From positions 1 to 64,000 of the forward strand of contig NZ_VCPE01000020.1 in assembly GCF_005938105.1 (NCBI RefSeq): 64,000 bases of DNA. The letters are read 5' to 3'. The notes below the pieces were generated by a model. The model searched no databases, was not told the origin of the DNA, and saw nothing but the letters and a program-made list of their open reading frames with translations. This document shows, one piece after another, positions 26,049 to 46,301 of this stretch. The translations under genes and the position numbers were made by a program. Each line of letters begins with the position of its first letter. The stretch's first letter is position 1. This DNA is from Brucella haematophila. Lineage in GTDB: Bacteria > Pseudomonadota > Alphaproteobacteria > Rhizobiales > Rhizobiaceae.

Positions 26049-26126
26049 GGAAATCTCGCTAGTACGGATACGGACGCGAAGCGTTCAAAACGCTCCGCTT
26101 GCCGATGGCGAGCGGAGCGCGGGCTA

Positions 26127-27125: not shown

Positions 27126-27258
27126 ATCACCCTCATTTTTTGCATTTATTCTAGGCATCCATGGCAGCGGAGCAGCTTTTAAGCAAATAGACATACCCAA
27201 TGGCAAACATTGTGCTGGCCTATGACACGTTGTGCTTTTTTCTGTGGGATAAGACCTG

Positions 27259-27651
27259 TCATCGGACAGTAGCTATACATTCGATCTCGATATCGAAATG
27301 AGTCCACGGCTTGATTGTCACGCAGCTACGCGCCGGAAAAGCACCCGTAAAATACTCGCGGTAGACCGCATTCATGTCCGCGGAAAATTCGTTTTTTGTA
27401 ATAAAAACAAGCGATTTGAAGACATTCTCGAACGAAGACCCCGCATGGCGCAGTGTGAAAGCCAGTGCTTCCATGCATGCGCGCGTCTGGACCGATATAT
27501 CGCCCTTGACGATTTCGCCCGTCTTCAGATCGATCGGAGGCATGCCACAGGTATAGAGAAGATCGCCAACACGCGTCAAAGCGGAGGTTGGTGCGCCGAG
27601 TTTACGGATGGCGTCGGAAATGACAGGAATTTCAATGACTTCATGTTTCAT
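27259..27651 (-). CDS. RidA-family (YjgF/UK114) imine/enamine deaminase
   Basis: A 130-residue RidA-type protein that starts at ATG 27651 (GGAG upstream). It contains LLYTCGMPPIDLKTGEIVKG, VQTRACMEALAFTLRHAGSS and the terminal EIECIATVR, matching the family, including the carboxylate-binding arginine (AFPARSCV). RidA proteins hydrolyse reactive enamines and imines or aminoacrylates. As first gene of the TRAP-amidase operon it probably clears an unstable intermediate of the pathway. The promoter should lie within 27652-27720. Confidence 0.88.
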   Translation of the reverse strand: MKHEVIEIPVISDAIRKLGAPTSALTRVGDLLYTCGMPPIDLKTGEIVKGDISVQTRACMEALAFTLRHAGSSFENVFKSLVFITKNEFSADMNAVYREYFTGAFPARSCVTIKPWTHFDIEIECIATVR

Positions 27652-29108
27652 GATGTACTCCGTGAATATCGTCTGAAACATTTAGAATATTCTTCTGGCT
27701 GCTGAAAAGGGCAGGGGAGCGACTGGATACAGTGCACCGCCACTCGGTCTACCTTTTATGGGTAAATCGGCGGGTTGATTAAAGCAAAGCCTTCCTGTCT
27801 CGGAAAAGGCGCGACCACAGCACTGGCTGCATTCAGTGGAACATTCTGTTCCCGGGTAGGAACCCAGCTAACCGCGCTCAGATTGAGGGCATCACGTTGG
27901 TTTCCCGCCGAACAACGGTTGGCTTGAACACGCGGGTTGCTTGCGAGTGTTTTTCGCCGAGAAATAGCAAAGGTTGGAATTATTGCACAAATATCGATTC
28001 CACGTGAATAGAATTCGTAATTTAATTAAATAGCATCATATATACCATCTCTTCACCTACTTGGTAGGCTTCACAAAAAAACAACAGGTGGCCAATTTCA
28101 AGATGTTATTATTGTATAAAGTGCTCGTGCCGACGATGAAAGACGGCAATGGGATCGCGACTGCCGGGTAGGTGAGGAACGTCGACGCCGCGCAGAAAGC
28201 CAGATCGACGACCGGCCACAATTTGACCGGGACGGTAATCCGAACTTCGATACCCAAGGCAATTACATCGGCTGCCAAGGAGTGGGCTGCGAGGTTGATA
28301 CTCCCGAGGACTAGTCAGATACGGTTATCGCTGCCGCTTTTGGGTGATCGCCAAAAAGGTTGAGCACAACTATGATAGGGGTGGAAACGGAACGGTTTCA
28401 TCATTGATGTGCTCACGGATTCTGACTGGCAATCAGATGGCACGACCAGCAGCGGAGTGGGAACAGTTGTCTGAAAACTGGTTCCTGACGCTGCACCGCA
28501 ACTTAATAGGAGGGAAACGGCTTGTAGCCTTTAATATTAACGACTGCGCAGAAGATGGTCTTCAGACAGGGAAATCGCAACCAAGTCCATCACGGCGCAT
28601 ATTGCTGGGACTTTGCGCAGATCGTTATGAACTGTAAGTCAAGTCTGTTTTCGAACCAAATGTTCCAGGCTATGTCGACGCTGCAATCGTCAGCACATGG
28701 TTTGAAAAGCAGGGTGAAGAAGTAGGCGATCATAGGGGCCACACAACATGGGGGCGCAATCAGGCGCAAACTTCATCGAAAGCTTAGTGCTGATGCGATC
28801 ACAACCTAGATAGTTCTCTCCTTGTCGGGACGACTAAACGGTCGTGCTCTTACTGAGCACTCGACGGTCGTCGCTCAGTTTCAGGCTACGGCAGTAATTC
28901 GGACGCTGCGGTTCAATATGTGCCTTGCATGCTGAATAAACAAAACGAAGCTTTGAGGTTTTTTGCAATCCGAGCGCCGCCTTTGCTGTCAGTTCGGATT
29001 TTCCGAGACGACTCGAAGTTGCGCGCGCTATCTGGCGCGTCGTTTTCCATCGGATTGACACATGATGGAACTTTCTGGCAACTTCCCTGGAGATGCGGAG
29101 GGGGTTCT
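27652..29108. other. Long gene-poor stretch between two catabolic islands
   Basis: About 1.45 kb without a gene I can support. Short frames (for example 28057-28278 minus and 28344-28637 plus) have no family features, and the first has a hydrophobic patch that could be a decayed transporter piece. The area is A/T-richer around 27950-28110. The ridA operon promoter is expected at its left edge and the RpiR promoter at its right edge. Confidence 0.35.
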
Positions 29109-30050
29109 ATGGCTGAGGAGATCGGATTGAAAAACGCGACGAGGGTCGGCAAAACACAGCAAACATCACGTGATAGTCGCTACCCTCGAGATGTCATCGG
29201 TATCATTGTCGATATGCAATCGGGCTTTTCGAAATCCAATCAGCGGATTGCGGCGGGCATCCTTGGAGAACCGCATCGCTTTGTCGAGCTGCCAATCGAA
29301 GAGTTGACCAATTGGCTCGATGTTTCTGCGCCGACGATTACCAGATTTGCGCGTACCGTCGGTTGCGAAGGGCTGAAGGATCTCAAACTGAAAATCATGG
29401 GCTCCGTTCGCGTCGGTCGTCGATATATGGAGCCGGATACTCCGCCGAACTCGGTAGGGGAAATAGCCGAGCGTGTCAGCCAGCGGGCGCAAAAGACCAT
29501 TTCGGATATGCACCACGCGCTGGATCTCGATCGAGCCGAACAGATCATCAAAATCATCAGTCGATGCCATACGCTTTATGCTTTCGGCAGTGGCGGCGTG
29601 TCGTCATGGCTTATCGGTGAGTTACAAAACCGCTTTTTCAGGCTCGGTATCCGAGTTGTTCCGAGTGACGATCAGACGATGCAATTGATGCTGGCTTCCA
29701 CCGTGGAACGAGACGACGCATTGTTGTGTTGTTCGTTGACTGGCGACAACAGAGAGCTTGAGCGGGTGGTCACTGTTGCGCAAGGCTATGGCGCGAAAGC
29801 TATAGCCCTGTGTCCTTCGGATAGTCTTATAGCCAAGGCAGTCGATCTGCATCTCGCTGTCGATAATCCTCCCGACGAGGATATTCTGTCGCCAGCAACT
29901 ATGCGTTACGCCTACCTCATGTGTATCGATGTCATTGCTTATGGAGTTGCCATCGAGCGGAACGAGACTGGTCGTGAAAAGATGCGGCGCATCAAGCAGC
30001 AGCTCGCCAATGTTCGGGGGAGTGATCGGACGCAGCCTTTGTGCGATTGA
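29109..30050 (+). CDS. RpiR/MurR-family transcriptional regulator
   Basis: A 313-residue regulator with an N-terminal HTH_6 domain (NQRIAAGILGEPHRFVELPI, then LDVSAPTITRFARTVGCEGL) and a C-terminal SIS sugar-phosphate-binding domain (LYAFGSGGVSSWLIGELQNR, LLCCSLTGDNRELERVV). The ATG at 29109 follows GGAGGGGG, which decides the start over the upstream frame from 28920. RpiR proteins respond to sugar phosphates or related metabolites. It is in line with and just before the ABC/dehydrogenase operon, its likely target. Confidence 0.92.
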   Translation: MAEEIGLKNATRVGKTQQTSRDSRYPRDVIGIIVDMQSGFSKSNQRIAAGILGEPHRFVELPIEELTNWLDVSAPTITRFARTVGCEGLKDLKLKIMGSVRVGRRYMEPDTPPNSVGEIAERVSQRAQKTISDMHHALDLDRAEQIIKIISRCHTLYAFGSGGVSSWLIGELQNRFFRLGIRVVPSDDQTMQLMLASTVERDDALLCCSLTGDNRELERVVTVAQGYGAKAIALCPSDSLIAKAVDLHLAVDNPPDEDILSPATMRYAYLMCIDVIAYGVAIERNETGREKMRRIKQQLANVRGSDRTQPLCD

Positions 30051-30078
30051 TAGTCAATTGATTGATGAAATTTTACTT

Positions 30079-30106
30079 TTGGATCAAATTTTGCTTCTTT
30101 TATAAG
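30079..30106 (+). promoter_or_regulatory. Candidate promoter for the ABC/dehydrogenase operon
   Basis: TTGGAT (30079-30084), 16 bases, TATAAG (30101-30106). The A/T-rich surroundings contain two AAATTTT repeats overlapping the promoter, a possible RpiR binding region. Confidence 0.5.
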
Positions 30107-30217
30107 CAACTAAGCGATTTCAGTCAAAAAATGACATAAAAATGAAAAAAATATTGGACAGAGAATAATTTTCACGCATACTGGCACCATAAATAAGATT
30201 TGAAATGCCAAGATGAC

Positions 30218-30242
30218 AATCAACGCCTGAGGGGCGTTGATT
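30218..30242 (+). terminator. Hairpin in the leader before the solute-binding protein gene
   Basis: Perfect 10-base stem AATCAACGCC (30218-30227) / GGCGTTGATT (30233-30242), loop TGAGG, then ATAGTTTTCTCTTT. It may terminate the regulator transcript or attenuate the operon. Confidence 0.6.
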
Positions 30243-30312
30243 ATAGTTTTCTCTTTAGGGTTCGTATTGTTCGAATTCTTGCAATCAAAAATAAATAAAA
30301 TGGGGAACTGGC

Positions 30313-31617
30313 ATGAATAATGCGCTGGATCGATACTTGCTGTCTAGAAGACAGGTATTGGCGGGCATGGCTGGCTTTACGGCCACAGGAATGCTTGGCA
30401 AACGGGCGATGGCGGCACCGTCCACGGCCATGGCATTCATCGGTTGGCAGTACCAGCCGCAGATTGTCGCTGAAAATGTAGAGACCTTCAAAAAGCTCTA
30501 TGATGAAAATGTCGCGTATGAGCTGGTGACCGGCGATTATCATCCCGTCGTAGAGACCAAGCTGACCGGCGGACAGCATATGGATATGCTTTACTCAGAG
30601 GAAAACTATATCGCTCGCTGGCATGCTGCTGAATGGATCCGCGATCTAGATTCATTGCCGGGTGTGGCCGATATCAAGGCTGGCATGTTTCCTGTGAGTG
30701 TGCAGTCATTATCCTTGCCGAATGGTGGCCCATTGTGCGGTTTGCCCTATTATGCGGGATACAATACTTTTCTCTATAATGAGGAGCACTTATCCAAAGC
30801 AAAGGCGGATGTGCCCAAGACCTGGGATGAAGTGCTGGAGCTAAGCCGGAAGCTCAAAACCGATGGTATCAGCGATGCTCCCTTCCATGGCATGTGGCAG
30901 CAGCAATGGTCCGATCTGTCGTGGAACATCTTTGCGTGCTGGTATTCCGAAGGGGCCAAGATCTTTGATGAGAAGGGCGACTTCGTCGATGAGCCGGCAC
31001 TTCGAAAAGTGCTGGAATTTTTCCAGACGGTCTACAAGGAAAAGCTCGTTGTGGAAGACATCATGACACTGCCGGGTGAAGGTGTGCCGAGCTATGCTTC
31101 CGGCCGTCATACATTCATGGTGGTGCATGACTACAACCACAAGGTCGTCAACGATCCGGCCGTTTCCAAGATCGCAGGTAAAGTGCGCAATGCACTAATG
31201 CCAGGTGCTACCCAATCGACCATGGCATGGACCGCGGCCTATCTGATGGGCGCGCAGCCCGTTGACGACCAGCGCGTTTGGAATCTGTTGCAGTTTTTTG
31301 GTGGTAAGGCCTCGGATGGCCAGTACCATGTCATCAAGCGTTGGGCGCTCGAGTTCGGTCTGGGTTCTGCTTATCGCGAAGTGATGGCTGACCCGGATAT
31401 CGTCGCGAGCTTTTCCAAGTGGCGCGACCTCGACATCTCGGCCAAGCAACTCGGCATGGCAACCTCACGCGCCATCGGCAAGGCGATCTGGTTCCCGGAG
31501 TGGGATATGTTCATGATGCAGCAGCTCCAGGAATATATCCGTTCAGGCAGTTCGACTGATGCCTTTGTTTCCGCGCTTGCCGCGAAAGCTTCTGAGCTGA
31601 AGGCCCAGTATCAATAA
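30313..31617 (+). CDS. ABC transporter solute-binding protein (sugar type, family 1)
   Basis: A 434-residue MalE/UgpB-like periplasmic protein. The N terminus has a twin-arginine-like signal (SRRQVLAGMAGFTATGMLG, cleavage near RAMAAP). Typical segments include VPKTWDEVLELSRKLKTDGI and AWTAAYLMGAQ. It is the first structural gene of the operon and is followed by a fused permease and an ATPase. Family 1 proteins bind oligosaccharides, sugar acids, polyols or glycerophosphodiesters; ligand unknown. Confidence 0.9.
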   Translation: MNNALDRYLLSRRQVLAGMAGFTATGMLGKRAMAAPSTAMAFIGWQYQPQIVAENVETFKKLYDENVAYELVTGDYHPVVETKLTGGQHMDMLYSEENYIARWHAAEWIRDLDSLPGVADIKAGMFPVSVQSLSLPNGGPLCGLPYYAGYNTFLYNEEHLSKAKADVPKTWDEVLELSRKLKTDGISDAPFHGMWQQQWSDLSWNIFACWYSEGAKIFDEKGDFVDEPALRKVLEFFQTVYKEKLVVEDIMTLPGEGVPSYASGRHTFMVVHDYNHKVVNDPAVSKIAGKVRNALMPGATQSTMAWTAAYLMGAQPVDDQRVWNLLQFFGGKASDGQYHVIKRWALEFGLGSAYREVMADPDIVASFSKWRDLDISAKQLGMATSRAIGKAIWFPEWDMFMMQQLQEYIRSGSSTDAFVSALAAKASELKAQYQ

Positions 31618-31725
31618 GGCTGTTGGCTGGAAGCGCTCCGGCCACCGCCGTCTATCCCTTTCCGTTTCCCAGTCTGGTGGTGACTGCTTTTGGCTGTTTC
31701 GCCGGGCGAAGAGTGTGAGGTCGTG

Positions 31726-33621
31726 ATGACACTTACGATAGACAGTCGCTCAGCGCATATACCCACGAAAGACCGGCGCCAACTATTCCGGCTTCCGGCA
31801 TTTGCCTATGTTTCGGTGACACCAACACTTTTCCTGATGATCCTTATCGTCGGAATTCCGCTCCTCTACAGTTTCTATCTCTCATTTGTAAGTGTGAACC
31901 CCATTACCAAGAAGTGGGTGTTTGTCGGTTTAGGCAATTACACTCGCATCTTCTCCAACGATGACTTCTGGGCGGCATTGGGGCGAACGCTTTATTTCTC
32001 GGTTTTGTCCGTCGCGGGGACGACGGTTGTCGGAACTGCCATGGCATTGGTGCTGAACAGGCACTTTTCGGGCCGGGGATTTCTGCGCAGTGTCGTCCTC
32101 ATTCCCTGGGCAATGGCTCCGGTAACCATCGGTGTATTGTGGTCTTTCGTCTACGCAGGCAACTTCGGTCTGCTGAACGGTTTACTGAATGACATCGGTA
32201 TGGGGCATTTGGCACGTCCCTGGTTTGGCGACGGCTTTCGAGCGCTCAATCTCGTTACGTTGACCCAGATATGGAACCAAGCGCCACTGATGACGCTCAT
32301 GCTCCTCTCAAGCCTGCAATCCATGCCCTCCAACCTGCATCGCGCAGCTGAGCTTGATGGGGCCGGGCCGGTAACGCGCTTCATGGCGATCACCCTGCCA
32401 TGGCTGAAATCCACGTTGTTATTTGCGATGATCGTTGCCACCATCAATGCGCTGATGACTTTCGATATTATCTGGATCATGACCCGAGGCGGTCCGGGTG
32501 CGGCAACCACGACGCTATCCTGGCTTGGCTATCTTCAGTCGTTTCAATTCCTGAAATTCGGAGAAGGGGCAGCACTTCTATATTTGCTGATGATGCTTAG
32601 CCTTTTGCTTGCACTGGTCTATTTCGCTTTCCTGTCTCCCAAAAAACAGAAACAACCATCACAGGACGCCATGACCGAGGTCTTATCGTCAGCGCCGCGT
32701 ACCAGAGCATTCATGGTAATCTTGCCTGCTTTCTCAAGACGTCGCCTTGTCCAACCGCAGACGGCGAAGCGTTTGACCACGATCGGCTTTTATACTGCCG
32801 TTATCACAGTCTTCCTGTGGTCCTTCCTCCCGGTTGCCATGCTTGTTCTCATCAGTCTGTCACCAACAACGGATCTCATACGAACACCACCGTCCATGAT
32901 ACCTTCGGCATTGACGCTCGATAACTACCGGGCTGTTCTGATGCCAAGTGGTGGTACGACAAGTGTGCAGGCGGCACGCGTACCTTTATCGTTGCTCAAC
33001 AGCTTTGGTATCGGCGTCGTCGTCTCGGTTATCAATGTGGCTCTGGGAACTCTCGCCGGTTATGGATTTGCCCGTTATGCCTCGCATAGGTTCTTTTCGG
33101 TGAGTTTGTGGGCGCTTCTCATAACGCGCATGGTTCCGGCGCTCACTCTCGTCCTGCCGTTTTTTGTGCTGTTTCGCATATTGGGCCTCATTGATACACA
33201 TCTGGGGCTTGTGATCGCATATTCAACGATCCTGATGCCGCTTTCCGCTTGGATGATGAAGACCAGCTTCGAAAATGTACCGCTCAGTCTGGAGCGGGCG
33301 GCACTGATCGACGGATGCACACCGTTCGAGATGTTCCGCAAGGTGCTGATACCTGTCGTAAAGCCGGGAATTATCGCGGCACTGATATTCTGCTTTCTGG
33401 TTTCGTGGAATGAATTTCTCTTCGCAATGATCCTGACATCCACGCCGAAAACTCAGACTATCCCAGTGGTTATCGCCGGGTTTCTCAGCCAGGCTAGGTT
33501 CAATGAATATGGCCCGCTATTCGCGGCGAGCGTGCTGGCGATTATTCCTCCGGTGGCAATCGCCTTCTTCTTTCAAAAATACCTCGTTCAGGGTGCGCTT
33601 TCAGGCGCGGTCAAGGGCTGA
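31726..33621 (+). CDS. Fused ABC sugar permease (MalF-like plus MalG-like halves)
   Basis: About 631 residues containing two complete binding-protein-dependent permease domains in one chain. The first half is MalF-like with the EAA loop RAAELDGAGPVTRFMAITLP; the second is MalG-like with RAALIDGCTPFEMFRKVLIP. Both contact the ATPase. A basic linker (around residues 310-350) joins them. These are normally two genes. The ATG at 31726 has TGAGG five bases upstream, better than TTG 31690. A genuine fusion is supported by the continuous frame with no stop between the halves. Confidence 0.9.
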   Translation: MTLTIDSRSAHIPTKDRRQLFRLPAFAYVSVTPTLFLMILIVGIPLLYSFYLSFVSVNPITKKWVFVGLGNYTRIFSNDDFWAALGRTLYFSVLSVAGTTVVGTAMALVLNRHFSGRGFLRSVVLIPWAMAPVTIGVLWSFVYAGNFGLLNGLLNDIGMGHLARPWFGDGFRALNLVTLTQIWNQAPLMTLMLLSSLQSMPSNLHRAAELDGAGPVTRFMAITLPWLKSTLLFAMIVATINALMTFDIIWIMTRGGPGAATTTLSWLGYLQSFQFLKFGEGAALLYLLMMLSLLLALVYFAFLSPKKQKQPSQDAMTEVLSSAPRTRAFMVILPAFSRRRLVQPQTAKRLTTIGFYTAVITVFLWSFLPVAMLVLISLSPTTDLIRTPPSMIPSALTLDNYRAVLMPSGGTTSVQAARVPLSLLNSFGIGVVVSVINVALGTLAGYGFARYASHRFFSVSLWALLITRMVPALTLVLPFFVLFRILGLIDTHLGLVIAYSTILMPLSAWMMKTSFENVPLSLERAALIDGCTPFEMFRKVLIPVVKPGIIAALIFCFLVSWNEFLFAMILTSTPKTQTIPVVIAGFLSQARFNEYGPLFAASVLAIIPPVAIAFFFQKYLVQGALSGAVKG

Positions 33622-33633
33622 AAGGAAACTCTT

Positions 33634-34683
33634 ATGGCATCAATTCAGATCGCAGGCCTGAACAAACAATATGGTGCGTTAAACATCCTGAAAAACCTCG
33701 ATCTTTCGATCGATGATGGCGAATTCATCTCATTTCTCGGGCCGTCGGGTTGCGGAAAGTCAACGTTGCTTTTCTGTATAGCGGGGCTGGAGGAGATCAG
33801 CGAGGGATCGATCCGCTTTGACGGTCAGGAGATGTCGGATCTGTCGCCCAGAGATCGCAATATCGCGCTCGTCTTTCAGGATTATGCGCTCTATCCGCAT
33901 ATGAGTGTTCGCGACAATATTGCATTTCCGCTGCGCCGACAGAAAGTCGATGAAGCGACAATCAATCGGCAGATTGGCTGGGCCAGCGAAGTTTTGGGTA
34001 TTGAAGCTTTGCTTGACCGGCTCCCGGCTGCGCTTTCCGGCGGTCAGAGACAGCGCGTCGCTGTGGGGCGGGCCATTGTCCGCAATCCTTCCGTTCTCTT
34101 GATGGACGAACCCCTGTCCAACCTTGATGCCTCTCTGCGCGTGCGCATGCGGACGGAAATCCGGCGCTTGCAGAAGGAGCTTGGGATCACGGTCATTTTC
34201 GTAACCCACGATCAGGAGGAGGCGATGGTTCTGTCTGATCGTATTGCGGTGATGAAGGATGGTGTGCTGCAACAGTTTGCACGTCCCATGGAGGTTTATT
34301 CCAGTCCCGCCAACCAGTTTGTCGCCGGGTTCATCGGTAGTCCGCAGATGAATTTTCTTCCTGCGGAATTGTGTGGCGGGTCCAAGGGTGAAATCATCGG
34401 CGTTCGTCCCCACGATCTTAAGCCCGTACCAAGGGCGGCAGGCGGGCTGAATTTGTCCGGGGATCTGGTTCTCGTCGAACCAGCCGGGCCCTACCAATTT
34501 CTCGATGTCGCAATCGGGGACCACGCGGTGCGTGCCACCTGTACCGATGCCAGCGGTTTGTCTCCTGGATCGAGAATTATCCTCAACGCGAGCGCGGAAG
34601 CAGTGCGTTTCTTTTCGAGCGACAGCGGCGCGCGCATCAATCAGCAATTAAAGGAACCGGAAAGCAGAATTCATGTCGTATGA
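33634..34683 (+). CDS. ABC transporter ATPase (MalK/UgpC type)
   Basis: A 349-residue ATP-binding subunit. It has Walker A GPSGCGKST, Q-loop VFQDYALYPHMSV, signature LSGGQRQRVAVGRAI, Walker B LLMDEPLSNLD and switch histidine FVTHDQEEAM. The C-terminal TOBE domain (GEIIGVRPHDLKPV) marks the MalK/UgpC group. It powers the fused permease encoded just upstream (12-base gap). Its stop overlaps the start of the amidohydrolase gene by 11 bases, indicating tight coupling. Confidence 0.95.
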   Translation: MASIQIAGLNKQYGALNILKNLDLSIDDGEFISFLGPSGCGKSTLLFCIAGLEEISEGSIRFDGQEMSDLSPRDRNIALVFQDYALYPHMSVRDNIAFPLRRQKVDEATINRQIGWASEVLGIEALLDRLPAALSGGQRQRVAVGRAIVRNPSVLLMDEPLSNLDASLRVRMRTEIRRLQKELGITVIFVTHDQEEAMVLSDRIAVMKDGVLQQFARPMEVYSSPANQFVAGFIGSPQMNFLPAELCGGSKGEIIGVRPHDLKPVPRAAGGLNLSGDLVLVEPAGPYQFLDVAIGDHAVRATCTDASGLSPGSRIILNASAEAVRFFSSDSGARINQQLKEPESRIHVV

Positions 34684-35830
34684 TCTGGTATTGAAGAATG
34701 GCCGGGTAATCGATCCCTCGCAAGCCATTGACCGTGTGACGGATGTGGCCTTCAAGGATGGCAGGGTTGCCGCGGTTGGAGAGGGACTGACAGGCACAAA
34801 AATGCGCGATGTTTCGGGCCTGATCGTGACCCCGGGTCTGATCGATCTGCACACCCACGTGTATTGGGGTGGCACTTCGCTCGGGGTGGACCCCGATCTG
34901 TTCGCTCGCAAGAGCGCGGTGTCTACATGTGTCGATACCGGCAGCGCCGGACCCGGCAATTTCCCGGGCTTTCGCAAACATGTCATCGAACGCAGCACGG
35001 CGCGTGTATTGGTTTATCTGCATATATCCTTTGCGGGTATCTATGGTTTTGCCAAGAACATCATGCTGGGTGAAAGCCATGACATTCGCCTTCTGGCCGC
35101 GCGCGAGGCAGTCGAAGTCATCAATGAAAACCGTGATGTGATCGTCGGTGTGAAGGTTCGCATCGGACGTCATGCATCTGGTCCCGCCGGTATTCAGCCG
35201 CTTGATGTGGCGCTTCAGGTGGCCGATGAAACCGGCCTTCCGCTAATGGCGCATATCGACGAGCCACCGCCTTCCTATGAAGCGGTCGTATCGCGTCTTC
35301 GCAAGGGCGATGTACTCACGCATTGTTTCCGTCCGTTTCCCAATGCACCGATCGATGGCAAGGGCAATATCAAACCGGAAGTTCTGGCAGCGCGTGAACG
35401 AGGGGTTATCTTCGATATCGGTCACGGCATGGGTTCATTCGCCTGGAAAACCGCTCGGGCCATGATGGGGCAGGGCTTTATGCCCGATACGATTTCGTCC
35501 GACGTGCATGCGCTGTGCATCACCGGGCCGGCCTATGATCAGGTGACGACATTGTCCAAGTTTCTGGCGCTCGGCATGCCGATCAGCGACGTTATCGCAG
35601 CATCGACGATCAATCCGGCGCTTGCTGTCCAACGGCCTGAGCTCGGGACTTTGAAACCAGGTGCTGTAGGAGACGCCAGTGTTCTCGACCTGCGTGCCGG
35701 CACGTTCCCGCTTGAGGATGTGCGTGGTGAAGTGGTGACGGCATCACAGCGCTTGTTCGCTGCCGGTCTCGTCATTGGCGGGCGTGAAATGGATATGGAC
35801 AGCCAATCGTTCGCAAACGCAGCAGAATGA
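34673..35830 (+). CDS. Amidohydrolase/deacetylase-like metallohydrolase
   Basis: A 385-residue amidohydrolase-superfamily enzyme of the dihydroorotase-like 'amidohydrolase/deacetylase' group. Metal site residues are visible in GLIDLHTHVYWGG (HxH), a lysine in VGVKVRIGRH, MAHIDEPP and VLTHCFRP (histidines), and the catalytic aspartate in DTISSDVHA. The beta-sandwich ends contain KNGRVIDPSQAID. Characterised relatives remove acetyl groups from N-acetyl amino acids or related amides. In this operon it may deacylate the imported substrate or an oxidised product. Confidence 0.87.
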   Translation: MSYDLVLKNGRVIDPSQAIDRVTDVAFKDGRVAAVGEGLTGTKMRDVSGLIVTPGLIDLHTHVYWGGTSLGVDPDLFARKSAVSTCVDTGSAGPGNFPGFRKHVIERSTARVLVYLHISFAGIYGFAKNIMLGESHDIRLLAAREAVEVINENRDVIVGVKVRIGRHASGPAGIQPLDVALQVADETGLPLMAHIDEPPPSYEAVVSRLRKGDVLTHCFRPFPNAPIDGKGNIKPEVLAARERGVIFDIGHGMGSFAWKTARAMMGQGFMPDTISSDVHALCITGPAYDQVTTLSKFLALGMPISDVIAASTINPALAVQRPELGTLKPGAVGDASVLDLRAGTFPLEDVRGEVVTASQRLFAAGLVIGGREMDMDSQSFANAAE

Positions 35831-35845
35831 ATGGGAGGGAAGATC

Positions 35846-37303
35846 ATGGATGGTGGTTACACATCCGCTAAAATCGGAAATTATATCGCAGGCGGTTGGG
35901 AGACAGAGCCCGAAACCATGCCAGCGATCAATCCGGCGACTGGCAAGCAGATAGCGCTGTTGCCGAAATCGACGGTTGCGACTGTCGACAGGGCGGTGAT
36001 GGCAGCCAAGACGGCTTCTTCTTCCTGGGCATCGACGCCGATATTTGAAAGAGCGGCTCTTTGCGTGAAAATCGGATCGGCGATTGATGCGTCAAGGGAA
36101 AAGCTCGCACGTATCTTGTCCGGGGAACAGGGTAAACCGCTCTCTGAGGCGATGGGAGAAGTCGGCAAGGCTGCAGACGGTTTTCGTCTAGCATCCGAAC
36201 TTGTCAAACAGATGGGGGGAGAAACTCTGCCCACTGAGGACCCGACCAAGCTGGCAATGACAATTCGCCAGGCACGTGGCGTCTATGGTGTGATCACACC
36301 ATGGAATTTTCCCGTCAACATTCCGGTCGAGTATCTCGCGCCGGGTATAGCGACGGGCAATGTCATAGTCTGGGTTCCTGCACCTTCAACGTCCTTGATC
36401 GCCTGTGCTCTGATGGAAGTCATCGAACAGGCGGGGCTGCCTGACGGTGTTATCAATCTGGTGATCGGTGAGGGCGCTACCGTGGGTGATGCCGTTGTTG
36501 TGCATCCCGATGTCGCGGCAATCGGTTTCACGGGAAGTGCTGCGACGGGCAAGCGCATCGCCGAACGTGGAGCAGGCAAACCACTTCTCCTGGAACTCGG
36601 CGGAAACGGGCCGGTTATCGTCTTTGAGGATGCCGATATCGAGGCTGCTGCTTCTTCTGCCGCTGGTGGGGCTTTCTTTAACGCGGGGCAGGTTTGTGCC
36701 GCGACTGGGCGCGTACTCGTCCATGAAACCGTGGCCGATGCGCTCTGTGAAAAGCTTGTCCAGCATGCCGAGCGCCATGTGCTAGGCGATCCTTTTCAGC
36801 AAGGCACGACGATGGGGCCACTCAACAATGCCAAGGTTGCGGTCAAGGTGAAAGAACATGTCGATGATGCGGTGGCGAGTGGTGCAACATTGCTTTGTGG
36901 AGGCAAGGCGCGTCCCGATCTGGGGAGTGACCTGTATTTTGAGCCAACTGTCATTGCCGGTGTAACGCGCGATATGCGGATCAATCGAGAGGAAACATTC
37001 GGACCTGTCGTTCCAGTGCTGACGTTCCGAAATGACAGCGAGGCTCTCGAACTTGCTCTAGACAGCGAATATGGACTGTCGGTGGGCGTATTTACCAAGG
37101 ACATGCAACGCGGTCTGTCGGTTGCTAAAGCTATTCCGGCAGGCATTGTGAACATCAACTCCGGCAGCACCTATTGGGAAATCCATCTGCCTTTCGGCGG
37201 TGGTACGAACACCAAGAGCGGTATCGGGCGCCTTGGTGGGCTGCATACGATGGAGGCCATGACGGAACTCAAGATGATTACGATCACTCTGGATCGCAGG
37301 TAG
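35846..37303 (+). CDS. NAD(P)-dependent aldehyde dehydrogenase
   Basis: A 485-residue ALDH-superfamily enzyme. It has the Rossmann motif FTGSAATGKRIAERG, the catalytic glutamate in LLELGGNGPVIV, the catalytic cysteine in FFNAGQVCAATGRV, and the C-terminal PFGGGTNTKSGIGRLGG. One unusual detail is NGP where most relatives have NAP or KSP. The ATG at 35846 follows GGGAGGGAAG; the earlier ATG at 35831 lacks a site. It would oxidise an aldehyde to an acid, plausibly the aldehyde produced by the GMC dehydrogenase or by aldol cleavage. Confidence 0.93.
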   Translation: MDGGYTSAKIGNYIAGGWETEPETMPAINPATGKQIALLPKSTVATVDRAVMAAKTASSSWASTPIFERAALCVKIGSAIDASREKLARILSGEQGKPLSEAMGEVGKAADGFRLASELVKQMGGETLPTEDPTKLAMTIRQARGVYGVITPWNFPVNIPVEYLAPGIATGNVIVWVPAPSTSLIACALMEVIEQAGLPDGVINLVIGEGATVGDAVVVHPDVAAIGFTGSAATGKRIAERGAGKPLLLELGGNGPVIVFEDADIEAAASSAAGGAFFNAGQVCAATGRVLVHETVADALCEKLVQHAERHVLGDPFQQGTTMGPLNNAKVAVKVKEHVDDAVASGATLLCGGKARPDLGSDLYFEPTVIAGVTRDMRINREETFGPVVPVLTFRNDSEALELALDSEYGLSVGVFTKDMQRGLSVAKAIPAGIVNINSGSTYWEIHLPFGGGTNTKSGIGRLGGLHTMEAMTELKMITITLDRR

Positions 37304-37313
37304 GAGCGATAGG

Positions 37314-37871
37314 ATGGAATCTGTATCGAGAAAGGACGAACGGCTGGTCAATTTCGCGCTGTCTGCGGACGAAGAGGCGAGAATGATTGCGGCGCTTGTT
37401 GATGAACTCATACCGGGCGATGCAATCTGGCCGTCGGCTTCTGCGGCAGGCGTCCACGGGATTATTGCTCTGCGGTTGCTTTCATCATGGGACACTGCAG
37501 CTCTTGAAAAATTTGCCGATTTGATTGGCTGGCTCAATGGCAGCCTATCGAGCGACGAACCAATGCAGCGGACTGAAGCGGTTGCTGCGTTCGAAGTTCG
37601 TGATCCCGATCTTTTTGACAAAATTTACATCGCAACCGTGCTTGCCTATTACGAGACGCCGTTTGTCGTATCGGTTATCCAGCAAAGCGGCAGACCTTAT
37701 TCCATCCGTCCTCATCTATCTGGCTATCCGATGGAGCCGTTTGACTTCAGCAAGGATATCCCCACTCACAATCGCGGTCATTATCTCGCGACGGACGCTG
37801 TCGTGCCTGTCGATATTTCCGAACTGGCGCTTGAAACGCAGAAAACTGAAAACTGGGGAGTTGCACGATGA
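37314..37871 (+). CDS. Small subunit of a GMC-type membrane dehydrogenase (gluconate 2-dehydrogenase subunit 3-like)
   Basis: A 185-residue protein resembling the small (gamma, subunit 3) chains of gluconate, sorbitol and glucose dehydrogenase complexes. Features are MIAALVDELIPGDAIWPSAS near the N terminus and FDKIYIATVLAYYETPFVV later. AGGAGCGATAGG precedes its ATG. The stop overlaps the GMC oxidoreductase start (ATGA), as in known complexes. Small subunits help to fold or export the flavoprotein. No Tat signal or cytochrome c subunit is evident here, which is unusual. Confidence 0.82.
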   Translation: MESVSRKDERLVNFALSADEEARMIAALVDELIPGDAIWPSASAAGVHGIIALRLLSSWDTAALEKFADLIGWLNGSLSSDEPMQRTEAVAAFEVRDPDLFDKIYIATVLAYYETPFVVSVIQQSGRPYSIRPHLSGYPMEPFDFSKDIPTHNRGHYLATDAVVPVDISELALETQKTENWGVAR

Positions 37872-39496
37872 CTGCGGATCGGACTTGCGACGTTTTGATT
37901 ATCGGTGCCGGTGCAACCGGCTCTCTCGCGGCACTGGTACTGGCACACGCCGGACTTGATGTGGTTTGCCTTGAGCAGGGCTCCTGGGTTGAGGCTGAAG
38001 ATCACCCGCATCTTCATTCGGATTGGTCCTGGCAGCGGCGCACTAATTGGAGCCCGGATGTCAATAAGAGGTCCCATCCGGACGATTTTCCGGTCAACTC
38101 GGATTCCTCGCAAATACTGATGTGGAACGGAGTTGGTGGATCGACGAATGTGTATGGCGCCATCTGGCCGCGATACCGTCCATCCGATTTTCGAAAAGGG
38201 ACGGAACATGGGTTACAACCCGATTGGCCGATTTCCTATGAAGACCTGGCGCCCTTCTACGAAGCGGCGGATAAATTGGTTGGTGTCTCCGGGTTGGCGG
38301 GTGATCCGGCCATGCCTGATCGGGAGCCCTGCCCAACCCGTCCCATGCCGGTGTCGAAAGTGGCCAAACGACTCTCTTCCGGTTTCGACAACCTCGATTG
38401 GCATTGGTGGCCGGTAGAAGCAGGAGCCATCACCGAGGATTATGACGGGCGTCCAGCCTGTAACAATTGTGGTGTCTGCAACGGTTGTCCGCGCGGCTCA
38501 ATGAGCAAGTACTCCATGTCGATCTGGCCCAAGGCACTTGATGCCGGCTGCGAGTTGCGTATCCACGCGCGCGTGCTGCGTATCGAAAAGGATAGTGACG
38601 GACGGGCGACCGGCGCGCTTTATGTCGACCGCAATACCGGTTTGAAGCGATTCCAAAAGGCTCGCTTGGTTATCGTTGCCGCCAATGGAATCGGAACGCC
38701 GCGCCTTCTGCTTGCTTCCGACAATCTGGCGAACAGCAACGATCAGGTTGGCCGTTATCTCTTACACCATACGCTTGTCGCTTGTGAAATGTGGGTGAAT
38801 GAGCCGGTTGATGGCCAGACTGGCTATGTCGCGTCGCTGATTTCACGCCAGTTTGCGGAAACCGATCCGTCACGTGGTTTCGTTAATGGCTTCAATTTCA
38901 ACTGTATCACGTCTTCGCCATCCGCGGGAGAACTGGCCGCAGGCTGGTTTACTTCTGCGCGAGCTCCTTGGGGTAAAAACCATCACAGTTGGTTCCAGAA
39001 GCATTTTGGTCATTCGATCGGGGTTTTTGCCATCGGTGACGATCTGCCAAATCCCGAGAACCGGGTGACACTCGATCCGGAATTGACCGATTCCGATGGA
39101 GTGCCAGCCGCCCGCACCCATTATGCACCGGGCGAAAATGACAAGCGCATGATGAACTATATGCTTGATCGCCTGGAAGATCTGGCAAAGGCATGTGGTG
39201 CGTTTGAGTATCGCTTGCATGATTATCGTGACAAGAATGGCGTCTATCGGACACCTGCCTGGCATATGATCGGCACATGTCGCATGGGAAGCGATCCCGA
39301 AACGTCGGTTGTTAATAAATGGAACCAGACCTGGGAAGTCCCAAATCTGTTCATCGTTGACGGAAGCGTGCTAGCAACCGGTGGTGTCGTCAATCCCACG
39401 CCGACGATATCGGCCTTGGCGCTGCGGGCCGCTGAATATATCAGGGATAATTTCGCGACCCTTACCACGACGGAAAAAACATCCATCGCGGCATGA
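37868..39496 (+). CDS. GMC-family FAD oxidoreductase (dehydrogenase large subunit)
   Basis: A 542-residue flavoprotein. The FAD-binding GAGATGS motif is at the N terminus (VLIIGAGATGSLAALVLAHA). A cysteine cluster CNNCGVCNGCPRGS resembles the iron-sulfur-type motif of FAD glucose and fructose dehydrogenases. The C-terminal catalytic His region is GTCRMGSDP, followed by IVDGSVLATGGVVNPTPT. It would oxidise a hydroxyl of the substrate and pass electrons to the respiratory chain or another acceptor. It is coupled to its small subunit. The missing cytochrome subunit implies another electron acceptor. Confidence 0.92.
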   Translation: MTADRTCDVLIIGAGATGSLAALVLAHAGLDVVCLEQGSWVEAEDHPHLHSDWSWQRRTNWSPDVNKRSHPDDFPVNSDSSQILMWNGVGGSTNVYGAIWPRYRPSDFRKGTEHGLQPDWPISYEDLAPFYEAADKLVGVSGLAGDPAMPDREPCPTRPMPVSKVAKRLSSGFDNLDWHWWPVEAGAITEDYDGRPACNNCGVCNGCPRGSMSKYSMSIWPKALDAGCELRIHARVLRIEKDSDGRATGALYVDRNTGLKRFQKARLVIVAANGIGTPRLLLASDNLANSNDQVGRYLLHHTLVACEMWVNEPVDGQTGYVASLISRQFAETDPSRGFVNGFNFNCITSSPSAGELAAGWFTSARAPWGKNHHSWFQKHFGHSIGVFAIGDDLPNPENRVTLDPELTDSDGVPAARTHYAPGENDKRMMNYMLDRLEDLAKACGAFEYRLHDYRDKNGVYRTPAWHMIGTCRMGSDPETSVVNKWNQTWEVPNLFIVDGSVLATGGVVNPTPTISALALRAAEYIRDNFATLTTTEKTSIAA

Positions 39497-39502
39497 AACC
39501 CT

Positions 39503-39534
39503 TACCCTGCCGACAACGATCTGTCGGCAGGGTA
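39503..39534 (+). terminator. Strong intergenic hairpin after the GMC gene
   Basis: A perfect 13-base stem TACCCTGCCGACA (39503-39515) / TGTCGGCAGGGTA (39522-39534) with loop ACGATC. There is no T-run, so it is more likely a partial terminator, attenuator or 3' stabilising structure that sets lower expression of the two downstream PLP-enzyme genes. Confidence 0.7.
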
Positions 39535-39567
39535 GCAAACAGCCGATTTCTGCCAGAGGATTTGAGA

Positions 39568-40677
39568 ATGCTACAGGTTCCGCCGGCTCAGCCGGGAATG
39601 AGAGAGGCGGATATCGATACGCCCGCGCTGATCATCGATCTCGACAAAATGGAAGACAATCTGGATCGTATGGCAACCTATTGCGCGTCGTCAGGTATTC
39701 GATTGAGGGCGCATGCAAAAACACACAAGTCACCGGTCATTGCGCACTGGCAGATGGCGCGCGGCGCTGTCGGTCAATGCGTTCAGAAAACCGGTGAAGC
39801 GGAAGTGCTCGCATGGGGCGGTGTTTCCGACATTCTGGTGTCGAACGAGGTCGTAAGCGAACGTAAGCTTGCGCGCCTGCTGGCTTTATCTGGCATGAGC
39901 GATGTTGCGGTTTGCGCCGACAATGAATCAGTCGTCAATTTGGTCGAGAAAGTTGCGGCTGACAGCGGCAAACGTTTCAGGGTTCTGGTTGAGATCAATG
40001 TCGGCGGAATGCGCTGCGGAATTGCTCCGGGCGAACCGGCGGCGGAGCTTGCCGCAGCAATCGCGAACAGCAAACATCTCATATTCGGTGGACTGCAGTC
40101 CTATCATGGCGCAGCTCAGCATTTTCGCAGCGAAGAAGAGCGCTTTGAGGCCATAAGACAGGCGGTTGAGAAGACCGAAGCGACGATCACGGCAATACGA
40201 AAGCGCGGACTTTCATGCGACATCGTCGGGGGTGGCGGTACCGGCACCTTCCGATATGAGGCGGCAAGCCAAGTCTATACAGAATTACAGGCTGGCTCCT
40301 ATCTGTTCATGGATGCCGACTACAGCCGCAACGATCCCATGCCGCCTTTCAGCCAGTCGCTTTTTGTCTTGAGTACCGTCATGAGCGCTCCGCGTCCAGA
40401 TCTGGCTGTGCTGGATTGCGGCCATAAGGGCATTGCGGTCGATAGCGGCCTGCCGCTGGTTTACGGTCACCGCAACGTCACCTATGCCGGTGCATCCGAT
40501 GAACACGGTGCACTCATAGTTCATGCGGATGGAGAGCGACTGCAGATCGGCGAAAAGCTTCGTTTGGTGCCGGGACATTGCGATCCGACAGTGGATCGTT
40601 ACGATTGGTATGTCGGTGTACGAAAAGGGCGCGTCGAATGCGTGTTCCCAGTCGCCGCGCGGGGAATGATGCAATGA
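39568..40677 (+). CDS. D-threonine-aldolase-like PLP enzyme (DSD1/alanine racemase N-terminal fold type)
   Basis: A 369-residue type III PLP enzyme. The Schiff-base lysine lies in LRAHAKTHKSPVIA after IDTPALIIDLDKMEDN. The C-terminal metal-binding motif is PGHCDPTVDRYDWY (His and Asp ligands of D-threonine aldolase/D-serine dehydratase). It could cleave or dehydrate a D-beta-hydroxy-amino acid. The start at 39568 has AGAGGA seven bases upstream and skips the hairpin; the frame from 39493 would translate it. Its stop overlaps the next gene (ATGA). Confidence 0.9.
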   Translation: MLQVPPAQPGMREADIDTPALIIDLDKMEDNLDRMATYCASSGIRLRAHAKTHKSPVIAHWQMARGAVGQCVQKTGEAEVLAWGGVSDILVSNEVVSERKLARLLALSGMSDVAVCADNESVVNLVEKVAADSGKRFRVLVEINVGGMRCGIAPGEPAAELAAAIANSKHLIFGGLQSYHGAAQHFRSEEERFEAIRQAVEKTEATITAIRKRGLSCDIVGGGGTGTFRYEAASQVYTELQAGSYLFMDADYSRNDPMPPFSQSLFVLSTVMSAPRPDLAVLDCGHKGIAVDSGLPLVYGHRNVTYAGASDEHGALIVHADGERLQIGEKLRLVPGHCDPTVDRYDWYVGVRKGRVECVFPVAARGMMQ

Positions 40678-41816
40678 ATATTGAACGTAGCAGTCTGGCT
40701 AACCAAAACCGACTCGCATCGATCGCGTTGCAGTGCACGCAATGTGCAGCAAGAGTGGCGGCCTCGCTCGTTTATCGCTGCGATAAGTGCGAAGGCATTC
40801 TAGAAGTTCAGCACCTCGAAGAAAAAAGCGGTTATTGGGCAACAAGTGATTTCGTGGATGAGGAGGTAACGCTGGGTGAGGGAAACACGCCTCTGCGTCG
40901 TGTTCCGGAGACATTGCTGCACGAAGCCTTTTGTGGAAGGCTCTATATCAAGGATGAAACCGGCAATCCATCCGGCTCATTCAAAGATAGACTGGTCGCC
41001 GCAGCGATTAGCAAGGCGATGTCATTCGGTGCCCGCGGCATCGTTTGCGCATCCAGCGGCAATGCGGGTGCAGCGGCGGCCCGTTATGCCGCGCACCTGG
41101 GATTGCCCGCAGTCATTGTCTGTCCTGAACTGACACCGGAGGGAAAACTCACGCAGATAATGGCCTATGGTGCTCGTCTGGAAAAAATTCCCGGACACTA
41201 TGGCAATTCTTTTGCCCACGCTTTGGATATTTGTCGCAAGACGGGCTTTGTCAATGTCACAACCACTTATCTCAATCCCTATGGTGTTGATGCGCTGCGT
41301 CTGGTGGGACAGGAGATTTATAACGCACTGGGTGACGATGTACCGGATTGGGTCAGCGTACCAACCAGTTCCGGGCCGTTGGTGAAAGGAGTTTTTACCG
41401 GGTTTAAGGATGCAGCCGGATGCCTGCCCAGGCTTGTTGCTGCGCAGGCGTTGGGCTGTGCGCCTATTGCGCGTGCCTTTGCAGCGGGTGAAATGAATGT
41501 TGAGCCTTGGGAACAACCGAAAACTGTCGCGTCGGGGATATCCGATCCATTGCAATTCTACCCTCAGGAAGGAAGTCATACGCTTTCGCTTGTTCGCGCG
41601 ACTGGGGGGATGGCAATAGGTGTTGAGGACGAATTTATCCTTGAAGCGATGAAAGATCTCGCGCGAACAACCGGAATATTCTGCGAGCCAACTGGGGCAA
41701 CTTCGCTTGCTGCTGTGCGCAGACTATTTGCCCAAGGGCATATCGCGCGGGATGCGGTTGTCGTTTGCATCGTAACCGGTCATGGCTTCAAGGACTTTGC
41801 AGCATGGAATTTTTGA
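40674..41816 (+). CDS. Threonine-synthase-like PLP enzyme
   Basis: A 380-residue fold-type II PLP enzyme. A short N-terminal zinc-ribbon (CTQCAARVAASLVYRCDKC) precedes the catalytic domain with the PLP lysine in ETGNPSGSFKDR, the phosphate-binding SSGNAGAAAARYA loop and a conserved VTGHGFKDF end. It belongs to the threonine synthase/ammonia-lyase group. In a catabolic operon with an aldolase-like enzyme, a beta-elimination or replacement role is more likely than threonine biosynthesis. The start overlaps the preceding stop by four bases. Confidence 0.9.
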   Translation: MNIERSSLANQNRLASIALQCTQCAARVAASLVYRCDKCEGILEVQHLEEKSGYWATSDFVDEEVTLGEGNTPLRRVPETLLHEAFCGRLYIKDETGNPSGSFKDRLVAAAISKAMSFGARGIVCASSGNAGAAAARYAAHLGLPAVIVCPELTPEGKLTQIMAYGARLEKIPGHYGNSFAHALDICRKTGFVNVTTTYLNPYGVDALRLVGQEIYNALGDDVPDWVSVPTSSGPLVKGVFTGFKDAAGCLPRLVAAQALGCAPIARAFAAGEMNVEPWEQPKTVASGISDPLQFYPQEGSHTLSLVRATGGMAIGVEDEFILEAMKDLARTTGIFCEPTGATSLAAVRRLFAQGHIARDAVVVCIVTGHGFKDFAAWNF

Positions 41817-41933: not shown

Positions 41934-42935
41934 TTAGTAATCGGTGATCTTTTTCATGTAGCGGCGACCGTCCAGCATGACCTGTTCACGTTTCGCCGCC
42001 AACTTATAGGCAAATTTCCAAAGAGCATCGAAGAAAATCAACGGCACGAAATATCCCTTGAAAGTGTCATCTATGTCAGCGAGATCGAGTTTCGCTGCAT
42101 CCAGCACCAACATATTGTCCGGCTCGCCGAAACGGTACAGGAAATCCCGGCCACGCTCGGCCAGCGCACGCGTTTCATCGAGCCCAATCATGACGACGAA
42201 GCAGGCATTTTTATCGACGACTTCGAATGGGCCATGGAAGAACTCATTGGCGTGGATAGCTTGCGAGTTGATCCACAGCATTTCCATGAGCACGCAGATG
42301 GAGAATGAATAGGCTGCGCCATAAACCGGACCGCTAGCCATGGTGTACACGACTTTTTCGCGGCCATAGCGCTCTGCATATCTGGTAAAGGTTTCATCAA
42401 AATGCTGCTGACCGCGTTCAATGGCCGGTTGCAGTGCCGGCAGGCTTTCCAGCAGTTTGGGCAGCAGGCTGGTCTTGTCGCGTAAATCGACAATGCCCGC
42501 CAGCAACATGTAAAGCACGCTGTAATTGCTGTCGGCACCATCGATCGGAATGCCGGTGGTGTAGGACGCCTGGTATTGCAGCACGTGGTCGGCGGCGGCG
42601 GCGAGCGGCGATTGCGGATCCAGCGTCAGGGAGATCACGCAGGCGCCCCGGCGACGGGCATGTTCTGCCGCCCGCACCGTTTCCTTGGTGGTGCCCGTCT
42701 GGGAGCACAGAATGACAATGGCATCGCTGTTGAGGCGACGCGGGTCGCGTGTGACGAACTCGTCGCCATTATAGACATCAGAGGTCAGCAGTCCCGAATG
42801 GCGATCCAGAAAATACTTGCCCGGATGCATGATTGACAGCGATCCGCCGCAGGCAACCAGAAACACATGCGAAAAATCCCGCTGCGCAAGCGCATTCAAG
42901 GTTTCAGCAATATCGGTAGGAAGTTGTTTGGGCAT
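41934..42935 (-). CDS. frlB: Fructosamine-6-phosphate deglycase (FrlB-like SIS protein)
   Basis: A 333-residue SIS-domain protein of the FrlB/AgaS group. It has HVFLVACGGSLSIMHPGKYF, then IVILCSQTGTTKETVRAAEH for the first SIS domain, and a second SIS domain with the family's NEFFHGPFEVVD. FrlB converts fructosamine-6-phosphates to glucose-6-phosphate and a free amino acid or amine. AGAGGA precedes the ATG at 42935; the longer frame to 43007 is rejected. It is divergent from the kinase gene, with a LacI-type operator between them. Confidence 0.88.
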   Translation of the reverse strand: MPKQLPTDIAETLNALAQRDFSHVFLVACGGSLSIMHPGKYFLDRHSGLLTSDVYNGDEFVTRDPRRLNSDAIVILCSQTGTTKETVRAAEHARRRGACVISLTLDPQSPLAAAADHVLQYQASYTTGIPIDGADSNYSVLYMLLAGIVDLRDKTSLLPKLLESLPALQPAIERGQQHFDETFTRYAERYGREKVVYTMASGPVYGAAYSFSICVLMEMLWINSQAIHANEFFHGPFEVVDKNACFVVMIGLDETRALAERGRDFLYRFGEPDNMLVLDAAKLDLADIDDTFKGYFVPLIFFDALWKFAYKLAAKREQVMLDGRRYMKKITDY

Positions 42936-43032
42936 TCTATTCCTCTTTTCAGCGTCTTGAAGAGCCCGGCTGTGCCGATCGGCAGCCGTTCCGGTCCAGT
43001 GCAACATTTCCCGGTACCAACCCCGCGATACG

Positions 43033-45066: not shown

Positions 45067-45153
45067 GTCTGCGCGTTCCTTCCAAGCAGTTTCACGCTGC
45101 TCAATACCTGTACCGTTTCATAGGCGATGATGGGCCTGATCTCAACTTTCAAC

Positions 45154-45199
45154 TTGACGGATGCGATCAATCAATGGCTATATTGTGAGAACGTTCGCA
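45154..45199. promoter_or_regulatory. Promoter and LacI-type operator (site 2) for the transporter
   Basis: TTGACG (45154-45159) and TATATT (45179-45184, 19-base spacing) face the solute-binding gene. The operator TGTGAGAACGTTCGCA (45184-45199) begins at the end of the -10, an ideal repression position. Confidence 0.82.
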
Positions 45200-46241: not shown

Positions 46242-46301
46242 GGGTTTGGTAAGTTCGAATACGAATTTCGCTAAACACGATACGGTAGTCTGGAGTAAAT
46301 C

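Follow-up and report, generated by a model that had tools for sequence, protein, structure and literature searches.

The described systems closest to the locus considered here combine oxidation, deacylation and pyridoxal phosphate (PLP) chemistry in different ways. In the available part of its description, the chd cluster (chdABCDER) of Nocardia testacea CS1 comprises a GMC-family enzyme, an aldehyde dehydrogenase (ALDH), an amide hydrolase, a threonine aldolase and a transporter (PMC13400229), and in a similarly partial source another GMC enzyme, CapO, oxidises the C3 hydroxy group of chloramphenicol (PMC9590159). In the oxidative chitin (Ong) pathway of Pseudoalteromonas, as far as the accessible account goes, OngB deacetylates the aldonate of N-acetylglucosamine (GlcNAc) and OngC, a fold-III PLP enzyme active on the glucosamine aldonate plus D-Ser and D-Thr, deaminates the product to 2-keto-3-deoxygluconate (KDG) (PMC9537276); OngB is classed, in the portion of PMC12017989 at hand, as a subtype V, D-aminoacylase-like enzyme having a Cys/His/His metal site. 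Here we analyse a stretch of 64,000 nucleotides of Brucella haematophila (the window; contig NZ_VCPE01000020.1), in which ten co-directional genes, all on the plus strand, span 29109-41816. We read them, with a probability of about 0.5, as an operon of plasmid type for the catabolism of an N-acylated amino sugar, or of such a sugar in oxidised form, that works by oxidation, deacylation and retro-aldol cleavage.

In the scheme that we infer, which extends to the substrate, the order and direction of the reactions, their cell compartment and the role of the last enzyme, the favoured, putative substrate is an N-acyl amino sugar brought in by the ATP-binding cassette (ABC) importer. The GMC dehydrogenase with its small subunit would oxidise the sugar, most simply at C1, to the N-acyl aldonate, from which the amidohydrolase (AH) would strip the acyl group to give a D-configured β-hydroxy-α-amino acid. 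The D-threonine-aldolase-like enzyme (DTA) would then cut between C2 and C3 by retro-aldol reaction, releasing glycine and leaving an aldehyde shorter by two carbons, and the ALDH would oxidise that aldehyde. The threonine-synthase-like enzyme (PALP) may apply PLP chemistry to the freed amino acid, or to its epimer, in an accessory or an alternative role. Starting from GlcNAc, the products would be glycine and D-erythrose, then D-erythronate.

Pfam and NCBIfam annotation of the window's open reading frames (ORFs) found every enzyme listed in the original prediction, a note made from the DNA letters, on the plus strand at its place; the list had left out the Gluconate_2-dh3 small subunit (37314-37871). 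From the ATPase gene through those of AH, ALDH, small subunit, GMC, DTA and PALP, the intergenic gaps are -11, 0, 10, -4, -4 and -4, the DTA and PALP genes each overlapping the preceding gene by 4 bp. This tight spacing, together with the gene order kept in two relatives, bears out the idea of one coherent catabolic operon. In a genome from another family of the order (G138, locus L037), the genes for the RpiR regulator, substrate-binding protein (SBP), fused permease, ATPase, AH, ALDH, small subunit, GMC and DTA follow in the same order at 39-78% identity, and PALP is absent from the operon. In a third family (G836, L094) the core set is kept at 39-72%, DTA is absent from the operon, and a PALP homologue (41%) lies divergently beside the RpiR gene. 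The conserved co-occurrence thus extends over three families, and the SBP recurs at E<=1e-60 in three of 397 genomes of the order (own, G138 and G836), each time inside the operon. Based on this distribution and on the gene content in G138 and G836, we take the operon core to be rare but real, with DTA and PALP as its variable end.

Re-association in other arrangements was also found. Sinorhizobium sp. RAC02 (L047) holds GMC (79%), small subunit (46%), a fold-III enzyme (36%), AH (44%), ALDH (49%) and sugar ABC genes in a different order, and the set in G788 (L109) is similar. In Rhizobium sp. L51/94 (L046), the GMC, at 79%, and the small subunit are joined by ABC genes and one mutarotase-like gene; this neighbourhood gave no AH or DTA match. 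Scanning the contigs of the named genomes with two short patterns from an alignment of two GMC sequences gave no operon, only a fragment in Amaricoccus macauensis (L043), where a fragmented GMC homologue stands beside a small-subunit homologue, likely as a remnant pair. At the DNA level, the only operon match in plasmids was a single stretch of 49 bases. A chance neighbourhood of unrelated plasmid genes would agree with the repABC plasmid look, with its integrase and transposase genes, and with the variation of DTA and PALP among relatives; it is largely refuted already by the order conserved in three families and by the re-association in shuffled form, and is hardly credible. Since the core order is conserved in G138 and G836, the gene set is more than such a neighbourhood.

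The character of the PLP step is central to the proposal. The DTA has the fold-III domains PF01168 and PF14031 and the HxD metal motif of the D-threonine aldolase family. Against the PDB it scores 345 bits with D-threonine aldolase, 320 bits with BhcC and 104 bits with D-threo-3-hydroxyaspartate (D-THA) dehydratase, and its GHCDPT aligns with the SHVDPT or GHCDPT of the PDB D-threonine aldolases and BhcC. The HxD residues bind metal and dehydratases typically use HxC; the PDB dehydratase 3wqg has NHAAAT at the motif site, not HxC. HxD is common to the window's DTA and its counterparts in L037 and L081, and HxC is found in the RAC02 enzyme. In a tree of 49 fold-III rows, several of them on flagged long branches and row L049 particularly uncertain, the two motif groups split with 100/100 support, and the window, L037 and L081 enzymes form one clade (100/99) apart from that of BhcC. 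The best DTA match of G836 (L117, outside the operon) and a relative of that enzyme in G788 (L116) have HxD and stand on a long branch. By motif and tree position, the window's DTA groups with the aldolases, its metal motif being theirs and not that of the dehydratases; of the two outcomes foreseen originally, aldol cleavage or elimination, the motif would favour the first.

The same class of substrate could nonetheless undergo dehydration, the fold-III enzyme or PALP forming a 2-keto-3-deoxy acid and ammonia, RidA clearing the imine in an Ong-like manner and the ALDH serving another step. Of the 15 fold-III enzymes linked to AH, 12 have HxC; RidA genes accompany AH in 13 of the 34 loci, and in the window one lies 7 kb from it; and there is precedent in OngB, OngC and KdgK, which do such chemistry, and in the RidA protein OngD, needed for growth according to the available text of PMC9537276. 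The HxD motif and aldolase-side position of DTA and its L037 and L081 orthologues, as well as the lack of a sugar-acid kinase among the ten operon genes, point the other way and make dehydration rather unlikely in this operon. PALP itself is narrowly under the cut-off of the ThrC model TIGR00260 (164.8 against 167.1 bits) and a gene over it (282 bits) sits on contig C6, so assignment as ThrC threonine synthase was rejected. A PALP homologue at E<=1e-30 occurs in two of six genomes searched, own and G836, in the latter beside the operon; the best DTA match of G836 (36% identity) is on another contig. The original view that an N-acetyl amino sugar serves every enzyme is unshown for PALP, because the operon can do without one or the other of DTA and PALP (G138, G836).

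Preferring retro-aldol cleavage after deacylation, we consider the AH. Its presumed metal ligands H60, H62, K161, H194, H217 and D277 are conserved in all 38 sequences aligned, its closest PDB entries are 2ogj, 8je0, 8wzy and 2ics, and D-aminoacylases match it at the N-terminus only. A relative of 2ogj is reportedly an ester hydrolase. AH homologues at E<=1e-80 are present in 85 of the 397 order genomes, own included. The accessible part of PMC12524618, citing Ornelas 2013, raises doubt whether 2OGJ is a genuine dihydroorotase. From 94 AH places (own included), 33 neighbourhoods of ~19.5 kb were chosen by AH identity, more from the high end, and that of G138 (L037), picked through its GMC, was added as the 34th. 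Counting homologues at E<=1e-12 within the neighbourhood, a fold-III PLP gene occurs near AH in 15 of 34 (14 of 33 without L037), across seven families, against 0.13 expected on the frequency of PF14031 (49 copies among 61 genomes of the order); these loci are related, not independent draws, and AH genomes may hold more fold-III genes than average. The fold-III gene of L104 is BhcC-type (71% to BhcC) and probably present for another reason. PALP is found near AH in 4 of the 34, ALDH at >=40% identity in 5 and GMC at >=50% identity in 3. AH stands beside DTA in G556 (L081), the rest of the operon being absent, and with a D-hydantoinase-type gene and RidA in L086; a contrast set of four more distant GMC neighbourhoods (L038-L040, L042) contains no AH or DTA. 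The suggested tie between a hydrolase family and PLP enzymes for β-hydroxy-amino acids is thus strengthened by the fold-III count and the pair in L081.

Two further AH arrangements were observed. Six loci (L087, L088, L090-L093) combine AH with RidA, a TRAP transporter and an HxC fold-III enzyme, with PALP (38-39%) in three of the six and a creatininase-like gene in L088, and likely represent a sister pathway whose substrate is an acidic N-acyl compound. In L047 and L110, AH, ALDH and an HxC enzyme are accompanied by a CnbZ-like 2-aminomuconate deaminase (in L047 384 bits, cut-off 220), an FAH-family hydrolase and a choline-dehydrogenase-like GMC, a set that may handle a diketo intermediate.

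The importer and its relatives favour an amino sugar. The SBP is 69% identical in G138 and 63% in G836, and the regulator 47% in L037 and 44% in L094. An RR-type signal was read by eye on the SBP N-terminus, the permease halves are UgpA-like (first) and GlcU/MalG-like (second) by NCBIfam comparison, and MalE3 was the sole match at E<=1e-8 in a sequence-profile search with the SBP. In Rhizobium leguminosarum CB782 (L137), an orthologous importer (SBP 63%, fused permease 61%, ATPase 67%) neighbours NagB-II-like and NagK-like genes, a short-chain dehydrogenase/reductase (SDR) and inositol-dehydrogenase-like genes; the region around it has no AH, GMC or DTA matches. On an Agrobacterium plasmid (L139), an HxD enzyme 48% identical to DTA lies near genes annotated as sugar ABC importer, sugar kinase and phosphosugar isomerase. 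The two contexts favour an amino sugar, proving none, and with L137 a nitrogenous sugar as ligand, as first proposed, gains in plausibility. A distant set of SBP, fused permease and ATPase (30-42% identity) is found on a Burkholderia cenocepacia plasmid record (L138).

The GMC dehydrogenase, correctly named at the outset, can be refined to a small-subunit-bearing type. Its nearest PDB relatives are the large subunit of fructose dehydrogenase (FDH, 194 bits) and FAD-dependent glucose dehydrogenase (FAD-GDH, 179 bits), and it has the motifs CNNCGVCNGC and HMIGTCRMG. The similarity to these enzymes and the mutarotase-like gene in L046 suggest C1 as the probable oxidation site. Identity is 78% in G138, 72% in G836 and 79% in two rhizobial plasmids. 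At E<=1e-150, a draw of 398 genomes from the phylum returned the own genome alone and a draw of 385 from the class returned two, own included; the other (G437, L045) combines a GMC at 56% with small-subunit and ABC genes, AH and DTA both being absent there. The looser threshold of E<=1e-80 gave 13 of 150 relatives, own included. Among the matches listed, the ALDH scores under cut-off for all 25 NCBIfam models, so that its specificity appears undecided.

An aromatic or lipid N-acyl 2-amino-1,3-diol, chloramphenicol-like, would also fit these enzymes: GMC and ALDH would make the acid, AH would deacylate it and the aldolase would release glycine and an aldehyde. The chdABCD genes of N. testacea encode just such a set (ALDH, GMC, L-threonine aldolase, hippurate-hydrolase-type amide hydrolase), and the available part of PMC13400229 proposes the corresponding intermediates. 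The sugar-type importer, the RpiR regulator, the FDH/GDH-type GMC with its small subunit and the amino-sugar context of the importer orthologue argue for a sugar, and the window's aldolase is D-type whereas ChdC is L-type. We regard such a diol as distinctly improbable. Oxidation of chloramphenicol yields an L-type phenylserine, in keeping with ChdC being an L-threonine aldolase.

Taken together, the near-contiguous operon, the core conserved in G138 and G836, the shuffled set in RAC02 and G788, the fold-III excess near AH, the HxD motif, the FDH/GDH-like GMC and the NagB-II/NagK-like context of the importer support the N-acyl amino sugar reading. Several findings weigh against it. The literature surveyed does not establish deacylase activity for this AH family. 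The model of the SBP from three sequences only reached pLDDT 35 and gave no ligand evidence, and the NagB-II-like and NagK-like scores in L137 (277 bits, cut-off 430; 167 bits, cut-off 370) fall under their cut-offs. Retro-aldol cleavage is not the universal end of the core, because the G836 operon has the core without DTA and only a nearby PALP. Finally, AH homologues at 73-75% identity stand with an SDR and a mutarotase, with no fold-III or PALP gene (L082-L085, L089), and 14 of the 34 AH loci have no fold-III, PALP or RidA match (L084, L085, L089, L095-L100, L103, L105, L106, L111, L113); both findings mean that AH does not have to act on amino acids at every locus. The AH might even be a sugar lactonase or esterase in a nitrogen-free oxidative sugar route, with DTA and PALP as passengers, as those five SDR/mutarotase loci, a galactarate-dehydratase-like gene upstream in L082 and the ester hydrolase reportedly related to 2ogj would allow. 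Among the five, two have a weak RidA match and one a hydantoinase-like gene. The co-occurrence of AH with fold-III genes in seven families, the D-hydantoinase-type gene and RidA beside AH in L086, the 4-bp overlaps of DTA and PALP with upstream genes and the NagB-II/NagK-like neighbours of the importer orthologue leave little room for this alternative, which we hold to be no more probable than the diol.

The remaining features of the window (Table 1) concern the setting of the operon. RepA, RepB and RepC genes at 6876-10580, a second RepC gene at 510-1859, and integrase and transposase genes make the contig look like a repABC plasmid, perhaps a cointegrate given the two RepC genes. The inverted repeat in the gap between the RpiR and SBP genes was absent from the corresponding gaps of L037 and L094 and is not claimed as an operator for that reason; promoter-like matches (8 against 8.3 in shuffles) and terminator-like matches (16 against 13.0) in the region are at about chance level. 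The convergent SIS-domain gene and the RidA gene with its divergent block are possibly related to the operon. The stretch 22054-27681 comprises a gene that looks LysR-like by sequence and the minus-strand M20 carbamoylase-like hydrolase, TRAP transporter and RidA genes, similar parts of which lie near AH in some relatives. In 43969-48958 lie a LacI-type regulator, an ABC transporter of the polar-amino-acid type and a reductase of the ornithine-cyclodeaminase family (NF004793 321.7 bits, cut-off 322).

Table 1. Operon genes and neighbouring features in the window (positions count from its first nucleotide).
Feature	Position	Strand	Basis or remark
RpiR-family regulator	29109..30050	+	HTH_6 PF01418 48 bits; SIS PF01380 25 bits
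Perfect 10-bp inverted repeat, RpiR-SBP gap	30218..30242	.	operator- or terminator-like
Sugar-type ABC SBP	30313..31617	+	SBP_bac_1 62 bits
Fused double ABC permease	31690..33621	+	two BPD_transp_1 stretches; start perhaps 31723
ABC ATPase, UgpC/MalK type	33634..34683	+	PF00005 118 bits; NF008653 392 bits, cut-off 432
AH, PRK09237-type amidohydrolase/deacetylase-family metallohydrolase	34673..35830	+	NF006689 429 bits, cut-off 371
ALDH	35831..37303	+	PF00171 509 bits
Gluconate_2-dh3-type small subunit	37314..37871	+	PF13618 25 bits, cut-off 23.4
GMC-family FAD dehydrogenase	37868..39496	+	fructose/glucose-dehydrogenase type; CNNCGVCNGC motif
DTA, D-threonine-aldolase-like fold-III PLP enzyme	39493..40677	+	PF01168 + PF14031; true start may be downstream
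PALP, threonine-synthase-like PLP enzyme, two CxxC	40674..41816	+	PF00291 246 bits
SIS-domain sugar isomerase/deglycase-like gene	41934..43007	-	convergent to operon; NF008481 128 bits, cut-off 430
RidA-family gene	27259..27681	-	TIGR00004 76 bits, cut-off 106; first gene of divergent block
Divergent block after RidA	23015-27206	-	DctP, DctQ-size ORF, DctM, M20 hydrolase

If the proposed reading is true, it has importance in assigning a physiological role to a D-threonine-aldolase-type enzyme, in suggesting an activity for a common amidohydrolase family, and in revealing plasmid-borne oxidative breakdown of amino sugars in rhizobial bacteria that ends in C-C cleavage rather than deamination. 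More tentatively, the operon could stand for an undescribed amino-sugar route of the Hyphomicrobiales, in which C1 oxidation, deacylation by a carboxy-lysine-type amidohydrolase and PLP-dependent retro-aldol cleavage lead to glycine and a tetrose, then a tetronate, and the PLP step is an exchangeable slot that one lineage fills with an aldolase, another with a fold-III dehydratase and another with a threonine-synthase-like enzyme. Among the matches listed (titles and abstract starts), which are not proof of absence, literature on glucosaminate or glucosaminic acid with D-threonine aldolase or retro-aldol cleavage showed no such route. The genome has one copy of a PF07005 kinase, on contig C1, for which a use in tetronate metabolism would be feasible.

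Compared with described systems, the operon shares with the β-hydroxyaspartate pathway (bhcABCD) a DTA-family aldolase adjoining a PALP-fold enzyme. Identity of the parts was rejected: DTA scores 419 bits as BhcC (cut-off 690) and falls in a separate clade, PALP 68 bits as BhcB (cut-off 550), and the gene at 48014-48958 107.5 bits as BhcD (cut-off 500). With FDH and FAD-GDH it has in common the large-subunit similarity and a small subunit; it differs in that Pfam detected no cytochrome subunit among the ten genes and no twin-arginine signal was obvious by eye (no predictor run) on the small subunit of the window or of seven relatives. The initial statement that no named pathway has this gene set was too strong: in terms of function, chd is made up of the same set of enzymes, and Ong follows the same logic of deacylation and then a fold-III PLP enzyme. 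As far as the available descriptions go, chd and the operon both have GMC, ALDH, amide hydrolase, threonine aldolase and transporter, by function class only, in one cluster that oxidises, deacylates and splits to glycine and an aldehyde. Peculiar to chd are the hippurate-hydrolase-type hydrolase, the L-threonine aldolase, an IclR regulator, an oligopeptide transporter and an aromatic substrate; peculiar to the operon are the PRK09237-type hydrolase, the fold-III D-type aldolase and the small subunit, of which the accessible chd gene list has none. Homology to the chd hydrolase and aldolase was discarded on these family descriptions. Ong resembles the proposed route in its N-acyl amino aldonate, amidohydrolase-superfamily deacetylase, fold-III PLP enzyme and RidA gene, and is set apart by an SSS transporter, deamination to KDG, a distribution nearly all in Gammaproteobacteria and, in the surveyed parts of its sources, no GMC/ALDH step. 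The AH, with HxH, Lys, His, His and Asp kept throughout the alignment, is not an Ong subtype V deacetylase, OngB being set apart by description; DTA groups with the aldolases by motif and tree, OngC being known by description only; no KDG kinase is among the ten genes, and the RidA gene is divergent. Membership of the operon in the Ong pathway was considered and not accepted. From the partial accounts of both systems, we understand the operon to differ from chd in its hydrolase and aldolase families and otherwise to follow the same logic, and to share with Ong the pairing of a deacylase with a fold-III enzyme.

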